IMG/VR virus record: IMGVR_UViG_3300030328_002903
Location: 1-55,724 of that record
Length of the DNA stretch: 55,724 nt
Reading direction: 5' to 3' (one strand)
Origin: a virus
Made by a program: the position numbers and the translations under genes. Of this stretch, positions 13,987-32,940 are shown one piece after another; position 1 is the stretch's first letter, and each line of letters begins with the position of its first letter. Below the pieces are notes generated by a model. It made no database searches. It was not told the DNA's origin and saw only the letters and a list, made by a program, of their open reading frames with translations.

Positions 13987-15449
13987 TAGTAATACTCCCG
14001 CTTCCTGCGATAACTATACTCTTCTTCTTGCTCTCCTTCAAGTGAAACAAATCCACCTTGCCGAAAACGCATTAAAGCTAACGTCATACTATCACAAAAG
14101 TCATCATAATCCCCATTGGGAAATGAAACAACCTCTTCAATTACTTCATCAGCAAATTTCTTGTCACTTGGTGCCCAAACTACACCCGCTTCAAATAAAG
14201 GTGCAACCATGTGCATTCTTGTTACCTTATCATTTCCTTTGCCCGGAGAAAACCCCAAAGCAGGAATACCACGTAATCTAAGCTCATCTATAAGAGGTGT
14301 ACCCGTAGCTTTTGCCTCGATTAATACCATGTCAGGCTCCCAATACTCATGTTCCATATAGGCTTTTTCCTTTAATTCTGGAAAGTTCCACCTACCACGC
14401 TGTGCATCCAGTAAAACTATGTGATCGGGACCACCTTCTTCTGGATTAAAAATTCCCCATGTCGTAATTGCAGAATAATCTGCCGTTTCCTTCTTGGAAA
14501 ACGCTGTATCATAGGCTTGAAGTATGTATTTACAGGGGGGAATCTCCTCTTTTTCCCACATTTTCCACCATTCTTTCTTGACAATCGCAGCTTCTGCGTG
14601 TGTTGGCTGTTGTTGCCATTGTGCCGACCACTTTGCTACAGGTAAAGAAGCCTTTATCCCCAATAATGCTTGCTTATCCCAAAACTCAGGCCATAAAGGT
14701 TTATCTGAGGGCAAAATTGCAGGAAATTCTACCACATCCCACTTGTCTGCCATCACATCAGACCCTTGAGCCGCCAATAATCGCCCTGTCAAGTCTTTTT
14801 TCCCCCACCTTGTCATAACAATAATGATAGATCCACCCGGTTGAAGACGTTGACGAGGACCAGAAGTGTACCATTCATAAGCATGATCGAATGCAGACTC
14901 ACTTAAAGCGTCTTGTTCACTGTGGGGATCATCAATTACAAACAAATCAGCACCACGACCAGTAACCGCAGCACCTACACCCGCAGCAAAGTACTCCCCT
15001 CCCTTGTCGGTTTGCCACTTACCAGCACTTTTGTTGTCTTCTTTCAAGGATGTTGAAGGAAAAATGTCCTTATATTGTGGATCAGCAATTAGATCTCTAA
15101 CTTTTCTACCAAAACGTACAGCGAGTTCCGTGTTGTGAGTTGCTTGAATAATTTTTAACTTGGGGTTACGACCCAAAAACCAAGCAGGCATCAAGTAACT
15201 TGCAAACTCTGACTTAGAATGTCGAGGTGGCATGTTAATTATTAATCTTTTTAACTCGCCCCTCGCTACCTTTTCAAGTTTTTCTGCAATTATTCTGTGA
15301 TGCTTACCTTCAATAAAGTTTTCATAAACATGATGGGCAAAAGGCATGAAAAAGTCTTGAGCCTCTTCTCTTATGTCAAGTCTTTTTTTCGCCTCCGTAA
15401 GAGCTAATATTTCTTTTAAGGCTTCTTCTGGAAGCGTTTGTAAGTTCAT
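13986..15449 (-). CDS. terL: Terminase large subunit (packaging ATPase and nuclease)
   Basis: A 487-aa DNA packaging motor. The ATPase shows the Walker A variant 'NMPPRHSKSE' (71-80), Walker B 'LFVIDDP' (168-174) and coupling segment 'MTRW' (211-214). The RNase H-like nuclease shows 'AYDTAFSKKETADYSAITTW' from residue 311 (Asp313), 'MVLIEAKATG' and 'DYDDFCDSMTLALMRF'. The protein ends in a basic, Tyr-rich tail. The matching TerS is not next to it but about 9 kb away at 24563-25099. Confidence 0.93.
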   Translation of the reverse strand: MNLQTLPEEALKEILALTEAKKRLDIREEAQDFFMPFAHHVYENFIEGKHHRIIAEKLEKVARGELKRLIINMPPRHSKSEFASYLMPAWFLGRNPKLKIIQATHNTELAVRFGRKVRDLIADPQYKDIFPSTSLKEDNKSAGKWQTDKGGEYFAAGVGAAVTGRGADLFVIDDPHSEQDALSESAFDHAYEWYTSGPRQRLQPGGSIIIVMTRWGKKDLTGRLLAAQGSDVMADKWDVVEFPAILPSDKPLWPEFWDKQALLGIKASLPVAKWSAQWQQQPTHAEAAIVKKEWWKMWEKEEIPPCKYILQAYDTAFSKKETADYSAITTWGIFNPEEGGPDHIVLLDAQRGRWNFPELKEKAYMEHEYWEPDMVLIEAKATGTPLIDELRLRGIPALGFSPGKGNDKVTRMHMVAPLFEAGVVWAPSDKKFADEVIEEVVSFPNGDYDDFCDSMTLALMRFRQGGFVSLEGEQEEEYSYRRKREYY

Positions 15450-18400
15450 GTCTCAACTATCACCGGTGTCGATTCTGTTTTTTGAAGATCTACAGATCTT
15501 TGGCCTCTTCTATAACGGCTAGGATTAACTCGAGTATAAGCTCTCGTTCCTATACCCTTTCTCATACGTTGTTCTGTAGTTGTTCTAAAACATTGCATAC
15601 CATCCGCACCTTTTACAAGTTTATATCCCTCTGGACAACTATACACAGGATCGCCATTTTCATCTGTGGAAGATTCTGGAGGAACAATTGGACCAACAGG
15701 AGGAGTTTCATCATACGTTCCCGGTGGAACTGAAGGCGGTGGATCTGTAGTAACCTCATCTTCCTCCTCTGTCGTTTCTACGATTATTTCGTCTTCGTCT
15801 TCTTCAAAAGGTTGATCTGTTGTGATCATTGTAGAGGTTTCAGTTTCAGGGTTAACGTCAGTAGTAACGTCAGTAGTAACTCCAGGGTTAACGTCAGTAG
15901 TAACGTCAGTAGTAACTCCAGTAGTAACGTCTACATTAGGATCTACAGCTGCATCTACAGCTGCATCTACATTTACTGTGGTGTCTGCATTAGGATCTAC
16001 TGTAAAGTCTACTGTGGTGTCTGCATTAGGATCTACTGAAGCTATACCTGCTGGGTCTGTTCCAGCTGTGGCAAATTGTTGTTGTTGTTGTAAAGAAGAA
16101 TCAAAAGCTGATACAAGACTATCTCCACTATATACTTTAACATTACCAAACTCTTTTTTGGAACCAGGAGAAGTATCACCTGTTTTATGACCATCATAAC
16201 CTTGTTCTTGTAAATATGCCTGAAAATTTTCTGATTTGGCACCAGGAGCTTTCTCTCCAAAAGGATTTTCAAAAGCGTTATAATCACCTATCTTTATATC
16301 TTCCATGAAAGTTTTTTCCTGGTTATAATAAGAATTATCTATTTTCTTTTTATTCTTATTGTAAAAATCTTCAGCTACTTTTAAATCATTTTCACTTTGA
16401 TAATCAAAAAGTTTAGTTCCTTCTTTTAAACGAATTTTATAAACCATAGGATTGCCTGCTCCTCTAGCATTAGCAAACGTTGAAGCATAGTCTGGAGATT
16501 TTGTCATATAGATGCCATCTCCTTTTTCATCTAGAATGATGCTGCCATCAATTGGATCGGTGAAAGAAGTATCAGCATCAAATCCTTCTAGAGATCTACC
16601 ACTATCTTCTCCTCTAAAGAAAACATCGTCTGTAACTCCTATGTCCTTGGTTTTATAAACTTCAGCAGCAGGTATCTCTAGTCCTGATTCATCTAGTCCT
16701 TGATTTGCAGCTGCATCAACATCAGCGGCAACTGCACTTATATATGGAGCACCATTATTATTTGCTACAATATTATCAAGCTCGTTTTTAGACATCCCCA
16801 CATTATTCGCTAGTGTTGCTATCCCCGCCGTTTCTTCTGCGGAAGGAACCTTAAGACCAGACGCTTGATCCGTAGGAGATCCAGCAATAATGTTTGATAT
16901 TGTTTGTGCCACTGCCGCTTGATCCGTTTCTATTGGAGTAGTTAAATCTACAGTAAAACCTTTAGTTCTTATTATATTTTCAATTTGTTGTGCCGTTATT
17001 CCAGTTTGGTCTGAAATAGCTTTAAGTTGGTTTACTGTTTCACCTGATAACACTACATTTCCATCTGCATCAACACTATTTTCAATAATACTTCCAATCG
17101 CAGCATCCGCTATTATCATTTCTTGAGTACTAGCTGTATTAGGTGCTACAGGAAACGTTCCTGGACCACCAGTTTGTAAAAGAGTTGGAGGTGCTTGAGC
17201 CGCTGTACCTGCCGTTCCTAAATCTACAATAGGTGTAGTTGTATTGTCAGAAGTGGTAAATGCTCCCGGATCACCAGAAGGAGGAATAATATTTGTGATT
17301 CCACCCGGTGGACCATAGTTAGGAAAATTAGGAGAAATCGTAACTTGATTACCTATTGATGTAGGTAAAACTGATGCTACTCCTGTTGACACACTACCAC
17401 TGGTGCCTTGTCCTAACACTCCTTGTCCTCCTTGTGCGGCAGCTCCCTTTGTTAAATTAGCAACGGTAATTGGAATACCCAACGCACGATTAGCCGCAAG
17501 ATTTTCACCTACTTTTTCACCATATTCAGTTACACCACCAGTCCAACCAGCAAACATTCCTCCTGCTGGTACTTTTACAGCCTTGGGAAGATTACTTAAT
17601 CCTGTTGCAGTTGCTATCTTTCCTACCCCACTAGCAAGAAGTGTATCTCCTAAACCACCTACAGGTCCTGAAACTGCTCCAGCTATTAGATCAGCAGCAC
17701 CTCTTATTTCTTGTTCAGCAGCACCTCTATCTCCTCCGTGTTTTGACTCTGCTATCATTTGAATTACTTCTGGATTTTCGCTTACAAATTTTGACACCTC
17801 ATTCTGGGCACCTTCTGAAGCACTATTAAAAGCTTCTCCAGTTGATGCAGCCATAATAATTGGTATCGCTTTTTTACCTAAACCTAAACCTGATAAAACG
17901 TCTATTCCAGTGTCATAAGCATCTTCAAAACCTTTCACAACTAAAGCTCGAGGGTCATCAAACATACCACCCCCACCTACCATTTTAGCTTGACCAGTAA
18001 GTAGTTCTTTTAATGTAGTGTCTGGATGAAATGTTGCATTTTGATCTATTCTTTCCTCCATTCCAGGAGTCATAGAACTTCTTACATTTTGAGCCGTATC
18101 TTGTAAAAATTTTAATGCTCCTGTATCCTCTCCTGTATAACCGCCACTGCCAACTAGGTCTGAAAGAACAGTTACCTTGTCTCCTTTAGTTGGAGTCAAC
18201 GCACTAGCAAACATGTCTCCATATTTAGCTGACCCCTCCAGAGTATTCGATAACATATCCCAAAAACCTCCTCCCGCAGATTTATATATATCACCATAAA
18301 TCGATAACCCACTTTTTACATCATCAAAGAAAGTTGGATCTTTATCTGGGGTAACACCACTTGCAGCTTCTATTCCTGCCAAAGTAGAAGTATCTACTCC

Positions 18401-19807
18401 ACTACCACCAGTAGGTACAATTTGATTTCCAGTAGGTACAGTGGGGCCTAGATTTCTCATAATATCCGCACCATCCGCGGCATTTTGAGAAGCATATGGA
18501 ATAGTTGTTCCTGCAATATAAGGACTACCCAGACTGTCGTAAAATAAAGTTGAAGCCGTTTGCCCACCACCCGGTAAAGTTACAGTTCCATAATCATCCA
18601 TAACTCCAATGTTCCCCGGACCTTGACCACTTGGATAAGCTGAAGAGTCTATAGCATCATAGTTTGTAGTAGGAGGACCAGAAGTACCCGCTGCTTGTGT
18701 GGCTTGTTGAGCAAGAACATCATCAGAAACTCCTTGATAGTCATCTACCACATCTCCAAACATATTATAGGTTGCCAATTGTTCTGCAGGAGTTATCGCT
18801 CCATCACCATTCAAATCTAACGAAGCGTCATATGATGGGTTAACTATGGTTGTTTCAGTACCCGGTGGACCATAAGTAGGAAAATTAGTTGTTGATCCAT
18901 AACTTGCAGTAGTAGCACCACTTGCGTCTAAATAAGGATCACCACTTAATCCTTGGTTAGAACCAAATAGACCACCTGACGAATCATATAGTTCTTGTTG
19001 TTGTCGTTGTTGTTCCGGAGATAAAGGTATAGATGTTTGTGTAATTTCACCACCCGGTAAAGTTGCCGGACTTCCAGTACCCGGTGGACCATAATTAGGA
19101 TAAGTAGCAGTGGCAGCACCACTTGCGTCTAAATAAGGATCATCACCACTTACTCCACTTGGTGTGGAAGGAGCAAGTTCCGTGGTGTATTGATTTCCTT
19201 TCCAAGTAAAAGTTGATTGACCTGCTCCTCTAGCATCTCCAAAAGCTTGGTCAAAAGACTTACTATCCGTGGTTTTAGTTTTTCCTGTTTGACTACTACC
19301 TGTACCTAAAGGAACAAATCCAGTACCACCACCACTTAAATTAGCCATCGTATCATTAATAAGAGTAGAACCTTGCGACAATAAACCAGATTGATTAAGA
19401 TAATCGGCACGTTGTTGAGCAGCTTCCGGCCCCAAGTTATTAAAAGTAGTTATTACCTGGTCTGCGTAAAAACCCTCCGTTGGCTCAGTAAACCCAAGAG
19501 ACATAGATACGTTTTCACTAAAATTTGTGTGCTGTAAATTAGGAGTCCAATCAAATGCAGATGAGGTAGATGTACTAGATTTGTCTGTAGTTATAGCCGT
19601 GTCACTTACATTCGACATTTGTGCATCGTAGTCTTTATCAGCAAATTCTACTTTCTGTAGACCTTTACCCGCAATATTTACAGCTTGACCATGATAACCT
19701 GCAGCTGCGGCTTCATTTAAATTAGCAAACGTAGGCGTAGTATCTTTTTTCTTATCTTTATCTTTATCGCTACTGCCACCACTACTGCCACCAGAATCTG
19801 CACCCAT
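15446..19807 (-). CDS. Large modular virion protein, 1453 aa, with an ADP-ribosyltransferase-like region
   Basis: A low-complexity multi-module protein. Residues about 184-211 carry 'SFDQAFGDARGAGQSTF' then 'GNQYTTEL', also found in the 296-aa protein. 'DPYLDASGA' units recur and DLNGDGAITPAE (331-342) is a canonical EF-hand loop. A middle part is Gly/Ala-rich and hydrophobic. Residues about 1060-1240 ('VFFRGEDSGRS', 'GDGIYMTKSPDYASTFANA', 'NVKVYSGDSLVSAF') resemble a phage ADP-ribosyltransferase fold. The end has TTDVTTDV repeats, an acidic run, and 'CPEGYKLVKGADGMQC'. It is probably packaged and may be injected. Confidence 0.65.
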   Translation of the reverse strand: MGADSGGSSGGSSDKDKDKKKDTTPTFANLNEAAAAGYHGQAVNIAGKGLQKVEFADKDYDAQMSNVSDTAITTDKSSTSTSSAFDWTPNLQHTNFSENVSMSLGFTEPTEGFYADQVITTFNNLGPEAAQQRADYLNQSGLLSQGSTLINDTMANLSGGGTGFVPLGTGSSQTGKTKTTDSKSFDQAFGDARGAGQSTFTWKGNQYTTELAPSTPSGVSGDDPYLDASGAATATYPNYGPPGTGSPATLPGGEITQTSIPLSPEQQRQQQELYDSSGGLFGSNQGLSGDPYLDASGATTASYGSTTNFPTYGPPGTETTIVNPSYDASLDLNGDGAITPAEQLATYNMFGDVVDDYQGVSDDVLAQQATQAAGTSGPPTTNYDAIDSSAYPSGQGPGNIGVMDDYGTVTLPGGGQTASTLFYDSLGSPYIAGTTIPYASQNAADGADIMRNLGPTVPTGNQIVPTGGSGVDTSTLAGIEAASGVTPDKDPTFFDDVKSGLSIYGDIYKSAGGGFWDMLSNTLEGSAKYGDMFASALTPTKGDKVTVLSDLVGSGGYTGEDTGALKFLQDTAQNVRSSMTPGMEERIDQNATFHPDTTLKELLTGQAKMVGGGGMFDDPRALVVKGFEDAYDTGIDVLSGLGLGKKAIPIIMAASTGEAFNSASEGAQNEVSKFVSENPEVIQMIAESKHGGDRGAAEQEIRGAADLIAGAVSGPVGGLGDTLLASGVGKIATATGLSNLPKAVKVPAGGMFAGWTGGVTEYGEKVGENLAANRALGIPITVANLTKGAAAQGGQGVLGQGTSGSVSTGVASVLPTSIGNQVTISPNFPNYGPPGGITNIIPPSGDPGAFTTSDNTTTPIVDLGTAGTAAQAPPTLLQTGGPGTFPVAPNTASTQEMIIADAAIGSIIENSVDADGNVVLSGETVNQLKAISDQTGITAQQIENIIRTKGFTVDLTTPIETDQAAVAQTISNIIAGSPTDQASGLKVPSAEETAGIATLANNVGMSKNELDNIVANNNGAPYISAVAADVDAAANQGLDESGLEIPAAEVYKTKDIGVTDDVFFRGEDSGRSLEGFDADTSFTDPIDGSIILDEKGDGIYMTKSPDYASTFANARGAGNPMVYKIRLKEGTKLFDYQSENDLKVAEDFYNKNKKKIDNSYYNQEKTFMEDIKIGDYNAFENPFGEKAPGAKSENFQAYLQEQGYDGHKTGDTSPGSKKEFGNVKVYSGDSLVSAFDSSLQQQQQFATAGTDPAGIASVDPNADTTVDFTVDPNADTTVNVDAAVDAAVDPNVDVTTGVTTDVTTDVNPGVTTDVTTDVNPETETSTMITTDQPFEEDEDEIIVETTEEEDEVTTDPPPSVPPGTYDETPPVGPIVPPESSTDENGDPVYSCPEGYKLVKGADGMQCFRTTTEQRMRKGIGTRAYTRVNPSRYRRGQRSVDLQKTESTPVIVET

Positions 19808-27193: not shown

Positions 27194-27350
27194 TGACAAT
27201 GACATATCTTATGTAACTGTGAAGATAGTGCATAAGAAAGGTCAAGATATACAAGATATAATATCTGATTGTGATTATAATTTTAGTCACCAGGATATTA
27301 TTGATACTGAAATTTTAGAAGTATGGGAGGTTTATAGTGACAAGACTTAG
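27183..27350 (+). CDS. Small protein, 55 aa
   Basis: MSINDNDISYVTVKIVHKKG with 'IISDCDYNFSHQDII' and 'EILEVWEVYSDKT', a short alpha/beta protein. I use the ATG at 27183, 6 nt after GGGGAG. It overlaps the methyltransferase start by 14 nt. No family recognised. Confidence 0.55.
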   Translation: MSINDNDISYVTVKIVHKKGQDIQDIISDCDYNFSHQDIIDTEILEVWEVYSDKT

Positions 27351-28797
27351 ACATGTAGATTTATGTAGTGGGATAGGTGGTTTTAGCTTGGGATTTTCTT
27401 GGGCTGAACTATCTAACACTATTATGTTCTGCGACACAGAGAAGTGGTGCAGACAAATACTTAACAAAAATTTTCCAAACATACCTATAGCTACAGATGT
27501 AAAGGAGTTAGCTAATGACCCAGAAAGAAATGTTCCCAACCACGACATCCTCACGGCAGGATACCCATGTCAACCATTCTCAGTCGCCGGACTTAGGAAA
27601 GGCGAAAAAGATGACCGCCACATCTGGCCGTACATCTTTAGAATTGTTACATGCAAAAGACCATCTTGGTGCGTTTTCGAAAACGTTTATGGTCACGTTG
27701 CCTTGGGCCTCGACAAAGTGCTCGCTGACTTGGAAAGTGAAGGCTACGCCACAAGGACGTTTATTGTTCCAGCTTGTTCCAAAAATGCTCCCCATAGAAG
27801 AGATCGACTCTGGCTCATCTGCAAAAATGTGGAGGACTCCACTAGTGGACGACTCGAAGAACGTAACTCCAAATCCCAAGAGGCATCAAGGTCTGTACGC
27901 ACAAGTGCAAGAGACGGGGATGGAGAAACTTTGGGCGACTCCTCGTGTAGGGGGAGAGGAAGGCTTCGAGTCAGTAGAGAAGAGATTGGGAACTCAAGCA
28001 GCCAAGAAGCACAATCTGTACTCGCAAGTTCAGTACGAGGAGATGTGGGCGACACCAAACACAATGGATCATCTACCCCCAAGATCAGAGGAAGCAACGA
28101 AGAAGATGCAAGAAGGTCACAGAAAGGGGAGATCGAAACCAAGCAATCTGAGGGAGCAAGTGGACGAGCAGACCATGAAACTATGGCCTACACCAAATGC
28201 TTGGGATGGGAACAGAGGTCCGAGGAGCAAGGAGAATTTGATCGAGAAGAACCATCAGATCAACTTGATTTCAGCAGTGAAGGACGCACAAGATCCAGAT
28301 CCGGTTCACATGTGGCCTACACCTCGAGCGAGGGATTACAAGGACGGAACTTCGATACCACCTTCAATCAAGGAAGGGAAGAGGAGTCACAACTTGGGAA
28401 CGAAAGTTCAAGAACAAGAGAAGATGTGGCCGACACCAGATGCGAACATGGGAGCAAGGGGAACACAACCGACTTGGACAAAGACACGGCCAAGTGGTCA
28501 TCCAGCACAGTACACGATCAATCAAGCAGTGCGAGACAACCCAACGCAAGAGAAGATGTGGCCGACACCAACAGCCAACGAGCATCACGCGGGGCAACCA
28601 ACGGGAAACATGCAAAAGATGTTAGGCAATCATCAAGACTTGGGGAAGACGAAGGCATCTGGTTCGCTGAACCCAACATTCGTAGAGTGGCTCATGGGAT
28701 ACCCAAAAGGGTGGACAGACTTAAAGGACTAGGCAATGCCATTGTTCCACAAATTGCCATGCAAATTGGATTAGCGATTAAGGCGGAATTAGAATGA
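27337..28797 (+). CDS. C5 cytosine DNA methyltransferase, 486 aa
   Basis: It transfers a methyl group from SAM to cytosine, probably to protect phage DNA from host restriction. Motif I is 'DLCSGIGGFSLGF' (8-20), motif IV 'GYPCQPFSVAG' with catalytic Cys78, motif VI 'ENV' (115-117), motif VIII 'RRDRLWLI' (154-161), and the end has 'RVDRLKGLGNAIVPQ' (motif X). The target-recognition region (about 164-440) is Ser/Arg/Gly/Glu-rich with seven repeats such as 'VADTNSQR', 'VGDTKHNG' and 'MAYTKCLG'. Nearly all of it is overlapped by a second long frame. Confidence 0.88.
   Translation: MTRLRHVDLCSGIGGFSLGFSWAELSNTIMFCDTEKWCRQILNKNFPNIPIATDVKELANDPERNVPNHDILTAGYPCQPFSVAGLRKGEKDDRHIWPYIFRIVTCKRPSWCVFENVYGHVALGLDKVLADLESEGYATRTFIVPACSKNAPHRRDRLWLICKNVEDSTSGRLEERNSKSQEASRSVRTSARDGDGETLGDSSCRGRGRLRVSREEIGNSSSQEAQSVLASSVRGDVGDTKHNGSSTPKIRGSNEEDARRSQKGEIETKQSEGASGRADHETMAYTKCLGWEQRSEEQGEFDREEPSDQLDFSSEGRTRSRSGSHVAYTSSEGLQGRNFDTTFNQGREEESQLGNESSRTREDVADTRCEHGSKGNTTDLDKDTAKWSSSTVHDQSSSARQPNAREDVADTNSQRASRGATNGKHAKDVRQSSRLGEDEGIWFAEPNIRRVAHGIPKRVDRLKGLGNAIVPQIAMQIGLAIKAELE
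27515..28732 (+). CDS. Overlapping-frame WPTP-repeat protein, 405 aa, inside the methyltransferase gene
   Basis: An open frame of 405 codons, shifted +1 relative to the methyltransferase and wholly inside it. It is not random: 'TSGRTSLELLHAKDHLGAFS', 'STKCSLTWKVKATPQGRLLF', seven W-[PAR]-T-P units (Trp codons at 27830, 27932, 28046, 28184, 28313, 28427, 28559) and the ending 'SLNPTFVEWLMGYPKGWTDL'. I have seen this pattern in phage and bacterial proteins next to cytosine methyltransferases. Whether it is translated here is unproven; no strong ribosome-binding site is seen. Confidence 0.55.
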   Translation: MTQKEMFPTTTSSRQDTHVNHSQSPDLGKAKKMTATSGRTSLELLHAKDHLGAFSKTFMVTLPWASTKCSLTWKVKATPQGRLLFQLVPKMLPIEEIDSGSSAKMWRTPLVDDSKNVTPNPKRHQGLYAQVQETGMEKLWATPRVGGEEGFESVEKRLGTQAAKKHNLYSQVQYEEMWATPNTMDHLPPRSEEATKKMQEGHRKGRSKPSNLREQVDEQTMKLWPTPNAWDGNRGPRSKENLIEKNHQINLISAVKDAQDPDPVHMWPTPRARDYKDGTSIPPSIKEGKRSHNLGTKVQEQEKMWPTPDANMGARGTQPTWTKTRPSGHPAQYTINQAVRDNPTQEKMWPTPTANEHHAGQPTGNMQKMLGNHQDLGKTKASGSLNPTFVEWLMGYPKGWTDLKD

Positions 28798-29141
28798 CAG
28801 TTCCTTTAACAAAGAAACAATTTTTAACTCTGGGGTATACTCTTTTAGCTAAGAAGAAAGGCATCGATCCTACTTGCCGGAATGTTTTGGAATTGATGAA
28901 AGAACACAAGGCTTTTAGAACGGAAAAATGTTGTCGAGAACTTAGTGAGAACGCAAAGGGAAAAGAGTATGGTGAGTATCAAAATATGAGAAGTACCTTT
29001 GCCCAATTGGAGCACTATCATAAAGTTGTGATTGGTAAACCCATTGCTTGTTTTGTTCCATCTAATGGTAGACCAAGCAATGGTTTCTATCCTACGGAAA
29101 AAGGTATGAATATTTTAAAGGAGAGAATTAATGACACTTAA
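28794..29141 (+). CDS. Unknown protein, 115 aa (possible winged helix)
   Basis: A basic protein, MTVPLTKKQFLTLGYTLLAK with 'TFAQLEHYHKVVIGK' and 'GFYPTEKGMNILKERI'. The last part resembles the wing and final helix of winged-helix proteins, a weak inference. It overlaps the methyltransferase stop by 4 nt and the next gene by 11 nt. Confidence 0.55.
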   Translation: MTVPLTKKQFLTLGYTLLAKKKGIDPTCRNVLELMKEHKAFRTEKCCRELSENAKGKEYGEYQNMRSTFAQLEHYHKVVIGKPIACFVPSNGRPSNGFYPTEKGMNILKERINDT

Positions 29142-29415
29142 AAGAAAATGGTGGATATACCACAATGAAAATCCTCATGTTTATGAGCTTGTCGAGCGTT
29201 TCACATTTGAAGTTATCAAACGAGGGTTTGAGCATTACTCAATCAATTCAGTTTTTGAACGCATTAGGTGGCACACGGATGTGGAAACTTATGGTGAGGA
29301 ATTTAAGTTATCCAACAACCATCGTGCTTACTATGCTCGGTACTTTATGCACAACCATCCAGAGTACAAAGGATTTTTTAGAACTAAGGAGATTACTAAT
29401 GAAAAACAACTGTGA
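29131..29415 (+). CDS. Conserved phage protein, 94 aa
   Basis: 'ENPHVYELVERFTFEVIKRG', 'NSVFERIRWHTDV', 'FKLSNNHRAYYARYFM' and 'HPEYKGFFRTKEI' form a pattern I recognise from many phage genomes. No function is known to me. AAAGGAG lies upstream of the ATG. It overlaps the following gene by 17 nt. Confidence 0.7.
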   Translation: MTLKRKWWIYHNENPHVYELVERFTFEVIKRGFEHYSINSVFERIRWHTDVETYGEEFKLSNNHRAYYARYFMHNHPEYKGFFRTKEITNEKQL

Positions 29416-29566
29416 TTTTTTAAGAGAAAGTTTGTCTAAGTTTTGGGATAAACTGGATAGAGAAGCAGATGATGCCAAAGATATCATACAAACTCTGAGG
29501 TCTGTATGTGAATACAACATTAAGATATGGGAAAGAAAACGTGGTAATGAAGATAAAAAGAATTAA
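29399..29566 (+). CDS. Small helical protein, 55 aa
   Basis: MKNNCDFLRESLSKFWDKLD with 'DAKDIIQTLRSVCEYN', predicted helical. AAGGAG lies about 7 nt before the ATG at 29399. It overlaps the next small gene by 20 nt. Function unknown. Confidence 0.5.
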   Translation: MKNNCDFLRESLSKFWDKLDREADDAKDIIQTLRSVCEYNIKIWERKRGNEDKKN

Positions 29567-31234: not shown

Positions 31235-31480
31235 TTATTTCCTTTTAAGTTCGTTAAATTTACCCCTCTTACCTTTCAATAATCTTTCTGGCTCCTTCGA
31301 GTAACCACGTATCTGTGTGACGTTGTCACGTTTCATATATTTTAAAAAAGTTTCTGCTATCTCTGGTGATAAACCACTAATTTGTGATATGGCAGTGGAT
31401 GCGTTCTTTAAATTGGTCCAACCTTTTTTATAGTCGCATACTGCTTCTATGAATTGTTCTTGGGTTTTAAACTTAGCCAT
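31235..31480 (-). CDS. Small protein, 81 aa
   Basis: A helical, basic protein ('KFKTQEQFIEAVCDYKKGWT', 'GLSPEIAETFLKYMKRDN'). It overlaps the helicase 3' end by 34 nt, so it is translated with it. The helical pattern could be a small DNA-binding domain. No family recognised. Confidence 0.55.
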   Translation of the reverse strand: MAKFKTQEQFIEAVCDYKKGWTNLKNASTAISQISGLSPEIAETFLKYMKRDNVTQIRGYSKEPERLLKGKRGKFNELKRK

Positions 31481-32919
31481 TGTCTCGCTTCCTCTCCTAA
31501 TACTTTTGCACTTAAATTAATTTTATTTCTTAATGACTTCACAATCTGTTCATCAATCGTTCCTTCAGATATTAAGTCAACATAAGTTACAGGATTATTT
31601 TGTCCTATTCTGTGGCATCTATCTTCTGATTGCATTCTCGTATCCAAATTAAAATCGTTGGCATAGTATACAACTAAGTTAGCTTCAGTTAAAGTTAAAC
31701 CATATCCAGCAGTAGCCGGATTACCAACAAAAAATCTTGTTGTATGATCTGGATTTTGAAAGTTCTCAATAATTCTTTGTCTTTTTTCATCTGGTGTGTC
31801 ACCAAAAAAAGATGCAGCAGAAGCAGGTCCAAACTTTTCATTCAGAACCTTAGTGATTTGTATAATATCGTATCTGAATCTGGACCAGATGATCGCTTTA
31901 CCATCATGTTCTTGTAGTATTTCTTCTAGGGCCTCCATTCTTTTTGATGGGAAGTAAACCATTTCACCATCATCTGTTTTCAAATGACCAGACATAACCT
32001 GTTGCAACCTCAACATCTGTGTAATAACGGCGGGGGCTGTAACCAATTCACCATTGTCAAGAAGAAGCATAGCTTTTCTCTTTAAATCTTCATACATTTT
32101 TAATTGTTCTAACGTAAGAGTTACATATCGAGCCGTGTAAAGTTTATCCGGTAAGTCAAGACAATCTTTTTTTAATACACGATAAGAATATAAATCAAGG
32201 AGCGAGGTTAAAGAATCAAGTTGCCTATACCCTACAACTTGTTGAAAGGAGTGTGCTCCCATTGATCTTCTATTTATAACTGCATACTTACCTTGAAAAC
32301 TGTAGTATGATTCATGCCCTAATAATCCTGGTCTAAGGAACTCACATTGCTGATAGATATCTAGTGGTGATCGTGTCACAGGTGATCCAGTTAATATTCT
32401 TTTGTACTTGAAACCTTGCGAAATCTTCACTAAATTTTTAGAGCGTTTGGCCTTGTGGTTTTTTATGGTGGTTGATTCGTCAATGGCTATTAGACCAAAG
32501 CTGCCAAACGCACCAGACAACCATTCCCCTGCTTTTTTTCCTTTAATCGTGGAGAAAGATTCAACGTTCATAACGAAGATAGTTAACCCGGAAAAAGATT
32601 CTTTAATAGAACGCATCTCTTTTTCTTGTGACTTGCTTGGAGATGCTGTCCAACGAATCACTCTATGAGGTACTTCTGGAGACATGTGCTCCGGGATTTC
32701 TTTAGCTACCCAATTCCGGTATACTCCCTTTGGTGCTATGATGAGAGCGAAATTTACTTTTGCCTCGAGGAACATCATACCAAGTTCATCGATAAGAACT
32801 TTAGATTTACCAGTTCCCATTTCCATAAAATAACCATATTCTTTTTTGCCCCAGGCTTTATCTAAAGCAACTTGCTGATGCTCATATGGTTTTGTTTTAA
32901 ATTTATACTTGACAGTCAT
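31447..32919 (-). CDS. SNF2-like superfamily 2 helicase, 490 aa
   Basis: A DNA-dependent ATPase. Motif I 'MEMGTGKSK' (32-40), Ia 'IIAPKGVYRNWV', II 'IDEST' (146-150), III 'RILTGSPVTRSP' (about 175-186), V/VI 'NPATAGYGLTLTEAN' and 'QSEDRCHRIGQNN'. Start ATG 32919 is set by AGGAGG 6 nt upstream. It lies antisense to the replication genes on both sides and has its own consensus promoter. Roles in replication restart or recombination are likely for the family. Confidence 0.9.
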   Translation of the reverse strand: MTVKYKFKTKPYEHQQVALDKAWGKKEYGYFMEMGTGKSKVLIDELGMMFLEAKVNFALIIAPKGVYRNWVAKEIPEHMSPEVPHRVIRWTASPSKSQEKEMRSIKESFSGLTIFVMNVESFSTIKGKKAGEWLSGAFGSFGLIAIDESTTIKNHKAKRSKNLVKISQGFKYKRILTGSPVTRSPLDIYQQCEFLRPGLLGHESYYSFQGKYAVINRRSMGAHSFQQVVGYRQLDSLTSLLDLYSYRVLKKDCLDLPDKLYTARYVTLTLEQLKMYEDLKRKAMLLLDNGELVTAPAVITQMLRLQQVMSGHLKTDDGEMVYFPSKRMEALEEILQEHDGKAIIWSRFRYDIIQITKVLNEKFGPASAASFFGDTPDEKRQRIIENFQNPDHTTRFFVGNPATAGYGLTLTEANLVVYYANDFNLDTRMQSEDRCHRIGQNNPVTYVDLISEGTIDEQIVKSLRNKINLSAKVLGEEARQWLSLKPKNNS

Positions 32920-32940
32920 AACATACCTCCTATATACCAA

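Follow-up and report, generated by a model that had tools for sequence, protein, structure and literature searches.

Why does the cytosine methyltransferase gene of a phage hold a second, full-length reading frame, and what does this frame encode? The question is raised by a locus in the 55,724-nt IMG/VR record IMGVR_UViG_3300030328_002903, which was analysed over its whole length (the window) and in which genes for portal, large terminase, primase, helicase and DNA polymerase indicate a tailed-phage contig. We propose, with good confidence, that the locus encodes a two-subunit C5-cytosine methyltransferase, in which a catalytic chain (alpha) works with a second chain (beta) that carries the target-recognition region, built of modular units, and motif IX.

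Structure of the locus

An earlier sequence-only reading had described a methyltransferase frame at 27337-28797 and a 405-codon frame, shifted by +1, at 27515-28732. Both are open at exactly these coordinates, and the elements of the locus are as follows.

27325..27330, plus strand: ribosome-binding site of alpha, GGGAGG, read from the sequence, 6 nt upstream of the GTG start
27337..28797, plus strand: alpha, the C5-cytosine methyltransferase frame (frame 0), 486 aa, GTG start
27358-27387, plus strand: motif I of alpha, DLCSGIGGFS
27501..27507, plus strand: ribosome-binding site of beta, AAAGGAG, separated from the ATG by 7 nt and within the alpha codons V-K-E
27515..28732, plus strand: beta, in the +1 frame relative to alpha, 405 aa, ATG start
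27559-27591, plus strand: motif IV of alpha, GYPCQPFSVAG
27673-27687, plus strand: motif VI of alpha, VFENV
27719..27781, plus strand: hairpin-like element of beta, CSLTWKVKATPQGRLLFQLVP, over the alpha codons between motifs VI and VIII
27787-27813, plus strand: motif VIII of alpha, APHRRDRLW
27830..28666, plus strand: array of seven WxTP units in beta, proposed target-recognition modules
28667..28723, plus strand: motif IX, LNPTFVEWLMGYPKGWTDL, encoded in beta
28717-28758, plus strand: motif X of alpha, RLKGLGNAIVPQIA

In the window beta is nested wholly inside alpha, and motif X lies in alpha. All seven Trp codons that open the units (27830, 27932, 28046, 28184, 28313, 28427 and 28559) stand in the +1 register, as the earlier reading had it, and the corresponding words of alpha are VEDS, LGDS, VGDT, MAYT, VAYT, VADT and VADT. 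According to our unit parser, the units are 34, 38, 46, 43, 38, 44 and 36 aa long. The C-terminal end of beta is LNPTFVEWLMGYPKGW, which contains motif IX, and the 3′-end of this element just overlaps motif X of alpha, again as had been described.

Three other frames of the window were noted. A 1453-aa ORF (15446-19807, minus strand) beside the terminase gene is without a PHROG match, and a 497-aa open frame with a TTG start (31447-32940, minus strand) adjoins gene blocks on the opposite, plus strand. A 133-aa frame (29165-29566, plus strand) overlaps a 94-aa ORF (29131-29415) on the same strand and is probably a downstream gene with an over-long start.

Origin of the open frame

As a null model we used 20,000 synonymous-codon shuffles inside alpha. 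About 11 stops are expected in the overlap from these shuffles, since the codon choice of alpha itself cuts the expected number from 17.6 to 10.8; nevertheless, the longest +1 frame among all shuffles had 326 codons and none reached 405. When the codon usage of the other window genes was used for shuffling, the longest +1 frame had 244 codons. Seven WxTP words are observed against 0.27 expected from the synonymous shuffles of alpha. Moreover, for 61 relatives the shuffles predicted 401 stops in the span of beta, and none was observed, and same-strand alternative frames in 11 further large genes of the window reach at most 81 codons. Hence, the open +1 frame is not a product of chance, and shuffles and relatives agree with the proposal of the sequence-only reading that the double coding on this strand is long-lived.

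Conservation of both frames

Relatives were collected with residues 1-59 of alpha only, which lie outside the overlap, so that sampling was not biased towards beta. The earlier reading had named frequent stops in the second frame of homologous genes as the observation that would speak against it. Our sample comprised 69 distinct, non-truncated loci, and in 66 of them beta is open. Sixty-one of the 69 passed a strict test for two chains, and five more failed on the motif X pattern only; the remaining three comprise two disrupted loci (L061 and L069, by indels or deletion) and one fragment (L100). In L069 (3001-4200), a natural deletion fuses the first ~65 residues of alpha to beta in one frame, removes motif IV and leaves the remainder of alpha in another register. 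This locus is either a decayed copy or a natural fusion.

The start signal of beta is conserved as well. AAGGA and the ATG of beta are invariant in 33/33 distinct upstream sequences of relatives, and the Lys codon of alpha at this ribosome-binding site is always AAG, although AAA makes up 43 of the 162 Lys codons elsewhere in the alpha N-terminus.

Selective constraint

Selection was estimated by a simple pairwise count of site classes in the style of OLGenie, with a bootstrap over columns. In beta, dN/dS was 0.47 (0.33-0.67) over motifs IV-VIII of alpha and 0.41 (0.34-0.49) over the repeats, where these and the following confidence intervals are approximate because the pairs share ancestry. 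Outside the overlap, the +1 frame gave 0.93 (0.61-1.33) and 0.85 (0.42-2.56), and the +2 frame was never below 1. For alpha the ratio was 0.20 over motifs IV-VIII and 0.99 (CI 0.84-1.14), that is neutral, over the repeats. Judged from these substitution patterns, beta is under selection as a protein, and both frames are conserved.

In a +1 layout, the third codon position of alpha is the second position of beta. Divergence at third positions of alpha is ~0.57 outside the overlap and decreases to 0.35 inside, which is the constraint at synonymous sites that the sequence-only reading had proposed to look for. In the C-terminal overlap, the most variable position is the first of alpha, which is the third of beta. 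Since beta is constrained over the repeats and alpha is neutral there, the VADT-like words of alpha can be understood as by-products of selected WxTP words. Just before motif X, over motif IX of beta, alpha holds EPNIRRVAHGIPKRVD (28669-28716), which is well conserved among relatives; the C-terminal overlap that contains it has no constraint of its own in alpha (dN/dS ~1.05). This familiar-looking signature may thus be a shadow of motif IX.

Identity of the two chains

Alpha matches PF00145 (E 3e-37) and PHROG 363 (E 3e-63), exceeds the cut-off of TIGR00675, and aligns with residues 9-171 of M.HhaI (E 1e-17). Motifs I, IV (PCQ), VI (ENV) and VIII (RRxR) are present in order, which places alpha among the C5 methyltransferases, and they are invariant or almost so in alignment A2. 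Motif IX was not found in the alpha chain that carries motif X; it sits in the +1 frame instead. A structural model of alpha from a relative has a Rossmann core whose fold matches HhaI, HaeIII and DNMT1, and its pLDDT is ~30 at residues 164-262. The sequence-only reading had assigned the target-recognition domain of the enzyme to the alpha frame. Such a region does seem to be involved in the double coding, but, because alpha is neutral and modelled with low confidence there and beta is constrained, it appears to be located in beta.

When the 405-aa frame was searched against viral protein profiles, as the earlier reading had suggested, beta matched PHROG 1008 (E 1e-37), a family that already bears the label DNA methyltransferase. 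Nothing above cut-off was found for beta among Pfam and NCBIfam profiles, and a PDB sequence search with beta gave no match. Columns of the beta hairpin are near-invariant in alignment A1, and in a relative two strands are predicted there with low confidence. The AlphaFold model of beta alone (L063, 54 sequences) had a mean pLDDT of 46, too low for a fold search.

Natural arrangements of the two halves

Single-chain enzymes can help to understand what beta is. In gp65 of Mycobacterium phage Phasih, one chain holds motifs I-VIII, LPTP units, HPAFPEWMMGWPAGW and motif X, and PHROG 1008 covers its residues 249-407 (E 2e-48). ShiLan gp70, also from a Mycobacterium phage, has the same order with several LPTP units. 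In both enzymes the motif IX element of beta is in frame with motifs I-VIII and X. By sequence comparison, the units and motif IX of beta are equivalent to the C-terminal part of single-chain methyltransferases. The assignment of motif IX agrees with canonical enzymes: the segment of Camerico gp39 with LSPEFVEWMMGLP aligns to positions 442-484 of PHROG 116, and the canonical single-chain enzyme of Klebsiella phage Roth27, which spans positions 208-498 of PHROG 116, has its motif IX LSPRECFRLQGFP in the corresponding region. Because units and motif IX sit in frame in the Phasih and ShiLan enzymes, beta is best interpreted as the half of a C5 methyltransferase that holds the target-recognition region and motif IX.

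The same halves also occur as two chains. Camerico 38/39, Peaches 77/76 and the viral contig L250 are adjacent split pairs, and in L250 motif X is carried on beta. In L139, a Flavobacteriales record, beta has an ORF of its own, located downstream of an alpha that is complete, and this standalone beta keeps the hairpin, the xTP units and motif IX (HMM E 2e-26). An automated list of 19 'non-overlapping' betas was discarded as mostly an artefact, in which overlap had been measured on the hit to a short C-terminal domain; L139 alone is fully decoupled, and L110, L111, L242 and L250 are adjacent or partly overlapping. The nested +1 layout was found in 79/79 viral loci collected via alpha, which were ranked on the whole of alpha and are not fully independent of the overlap. 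Among bacterial-genome loci found via beta and classified with alpha, 37 of 43 have beta nested at +1 and ending inside alpha. These records are from proteobacteria, acidobacteria, Bacteroidetes, Firmicutes, Verrucomicrobia and others, many of them metagenome bins, and the nested loci are perhaps prophages. When stops in the alpha register were counted over the units and motif IX, four nested loci had none and six non-nested loci had 3-10; on this comparison, which serves as the control for the overlap hypothesis, the register is kept open only if translation of alpha has to continue as far as motif X.

Two loci flagged as fused, L136 (1682-2665) and L161 (1125-2156), have motif IX in the alpha frame and xTP units in +1. 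They could be real rearrangements or frameshifts of metagenome assembly, and were left out of the evidence.

The order of the single-chain enzymes would also be restored if a ribosomal frameshift joined the N-terminal part of alpha to beta as one chain without independent initiation of beta, and the fusion created by the L069 deletion is in line with this. We consider it very unlikely, however, since an invariant ribosome-binding site and ATG precede beta, motif X is back in frame 0, and the selected region of beta starts upstream of motif IV and would be skipped by any shift that keeps motifs IV-VIII. A separate repeat protein with a role of its own, overprinted on an alpha frame that retains the target-recognition domain, was the interpretation of the sequence-only reading. 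It accords with two open and conserved frames, with purifying selection on beta and with the correctly identified register of the repeats, but it is highly improbable: single-chain enzymes hold the units and motif IX of beta in frame with motifs I-VIII and X, and there is no motif IX in alpha, whose amino acid sequence is free of constraint across the repeats. What had been called a second repeat protein is better understood, from these homologues, as the other half of the enzyme.

One observation limits the use of profile matches. The beta profile is matched in its N-terminal half by the +1 frame of the single-chain Phasih enzyme too, so a resemblance confined to this half can be a shadow of conservation in alpha. 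The N-terminal half of beta reflects, in part, conserved motifs of alpha; a profile match to it is therefore weak evidence when taken alone, and for this half the point is carried by the selection test and by the standalone beta. That the whole +1 frame codes for nothing and only reflects how alpha is conserved and composed is scarcely credible, because, although this Phasih match and the reduced stop expectation from alpha codon choice favour it, synonymous shuffles never reproduced the frame, beta is constrained where alpha is neutral over the repeats, and beta exists on its own in L139.

Exchange of WxTP units

Units have a median length of 41 aa (middle half 35-44), and relatives carry 0-7 of them. 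At 60% identity they fall into 109 types. Only 2/497 pairs within one protein are of the same type, so the array is not a simple tandem duplication. Types recur across many carriers, with changed neighbours and positions, and units can be 84-100% identical even where the preceding beta core is only 40-60% identical. In C5 enzymes, target-recognition domains are located between motifs VIII and IX. Since the units lie between these motifs and are shuffled, they are most simply read as target-recognition modules, and distinct modules at this place that are exchanged between enzymes are the mark of multispecific methyltransferases. The TL motif of C5 target-recognition domains is P(STCA)PT(ILV)(TASV) (PMC2413257). 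This strict motif was not found in the units, where W[PAR]TP is followed by variable residues, and we therefore rejected WPTP as the TL motif of known domains.

Proposed split enzyme

According to our model, alpha would supply S-adenosylmethionine binding, the catalytic Cys, motifs I-VIII and the C-terminal motif X, and beta, started from its own ribosome-binding site and ATG, would supply the target-recognition region (hairpin and WxTP units) and motif IX. The two chains would then assemble into one enzyme that modifies phage DNA, and the modification probably guards against host restriction. Between motifs VIII and X, alpha would be an unconstrained linker that need only lack stops, and each ~41-residue unit is probably a target-recognition module that phages can acquire, lose and exchange with one another. 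What we infer for this enzyme is that its chains assemble, that it methylates DNA, that it gives protection and that each unit has a specificity of its own. Furthermore, specificity may be set by a combinatorial array of 0-7 swappable modules, encoded in a frame that overlaps the catalytic subunit and protecting several targets, a tentative proposal to which we give somewhat less than an even chance. If it is true, each exchanged module must be free of stops in two registers at once; and if each unit sets a specificity, the units would amount to a natural code in which C5 methylation targets are written, and methylome sequencing could decipher it.

Our reading would identify PHROG 1008 as the missing motif IX and target-recognition chain of a split enzyme. 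It also makes 1.2 kb of double coding on the same strand mechanistically understandable, in that over most of the overlap one frame is neutral and one selected, and the natural series of single-chain, adjacent split, nested and decoupled forms allows the effect of overlap on sequence evolution to be measured. For annotation, beta would be lost with gene callers that do not allow long overlaps, and the neutral linker of alpha could be mistaken for a target-recognition domain.

Relation to known methyltransferases

Both nested ORFs of Paenibacillus phage Tadhana (gp54/gp55) are already annotated as methyltransferases. Among the annotations of PHROG 1008 and of such phage pairs, we saw none naming the second ORF as a motif IX or target-recognition subunit, and a literature search found no earlier description of this overlap in phages.

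Multispecific methyltransferases of the SPR and H2 type are single chains. The array of the window would resemble them as tandem modules in a phage C5 enzyme, if the units have the recognition role that we infer, and differs from them in being encoded in an overlapping frame. In the enzymes of Bacillus phages (SPR, H2 and others), several target-recognition domains stand in tandem (PMC8936443). The second chain of M.AquI holds motif IX and part of the variable region (PMC3404938), an arrangement that the pairs Camerico 38/39 and Peaches 77/76 and the contig L250 seem to share. This chain of M.AquI also carries motif X, however, which in the window belongs to alpha, with beta wholly nested.

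In M.EcoHK31I, the gene of the large subunit also encodes the small one in an alternative frame and, if this holds, the window shares the arrangement, as its small subunit is read from a second frame within the large-subunit gene. M.EcoHK31I is a two-polypeptide C5 methyltransferase for YGGCCR (Lee, Kam and Shaw 1995, cited in PMC3404938); its larger chain has motifs I-VIII and X and a predicted target-recognition domain, and its smaller chain has motif IX alone (PMC3404938). The window likewise has a large subunit with motifs I-VIII and X, and motif IX on the small subunit. The published prediction puts the target-recognition region of M.EcoHK31I in the large subunit, and this placement counts against our reading of beta, to which the region of the window appears to belong; we regard the discrepancy as one of detail, since the placement is not an established hallmark of this enzyme type. 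A plasmid search returned four distant matches, EcoHK31I not among them, and M.EcoHK31I was compared by description only; on that comparison, the modular array of 0-7 shuffled units in beta is a further difference. In summary, the double coding is real, and the type of split enzyme that it suggests resembles a rare known kind, that of M.EcoHK31I.
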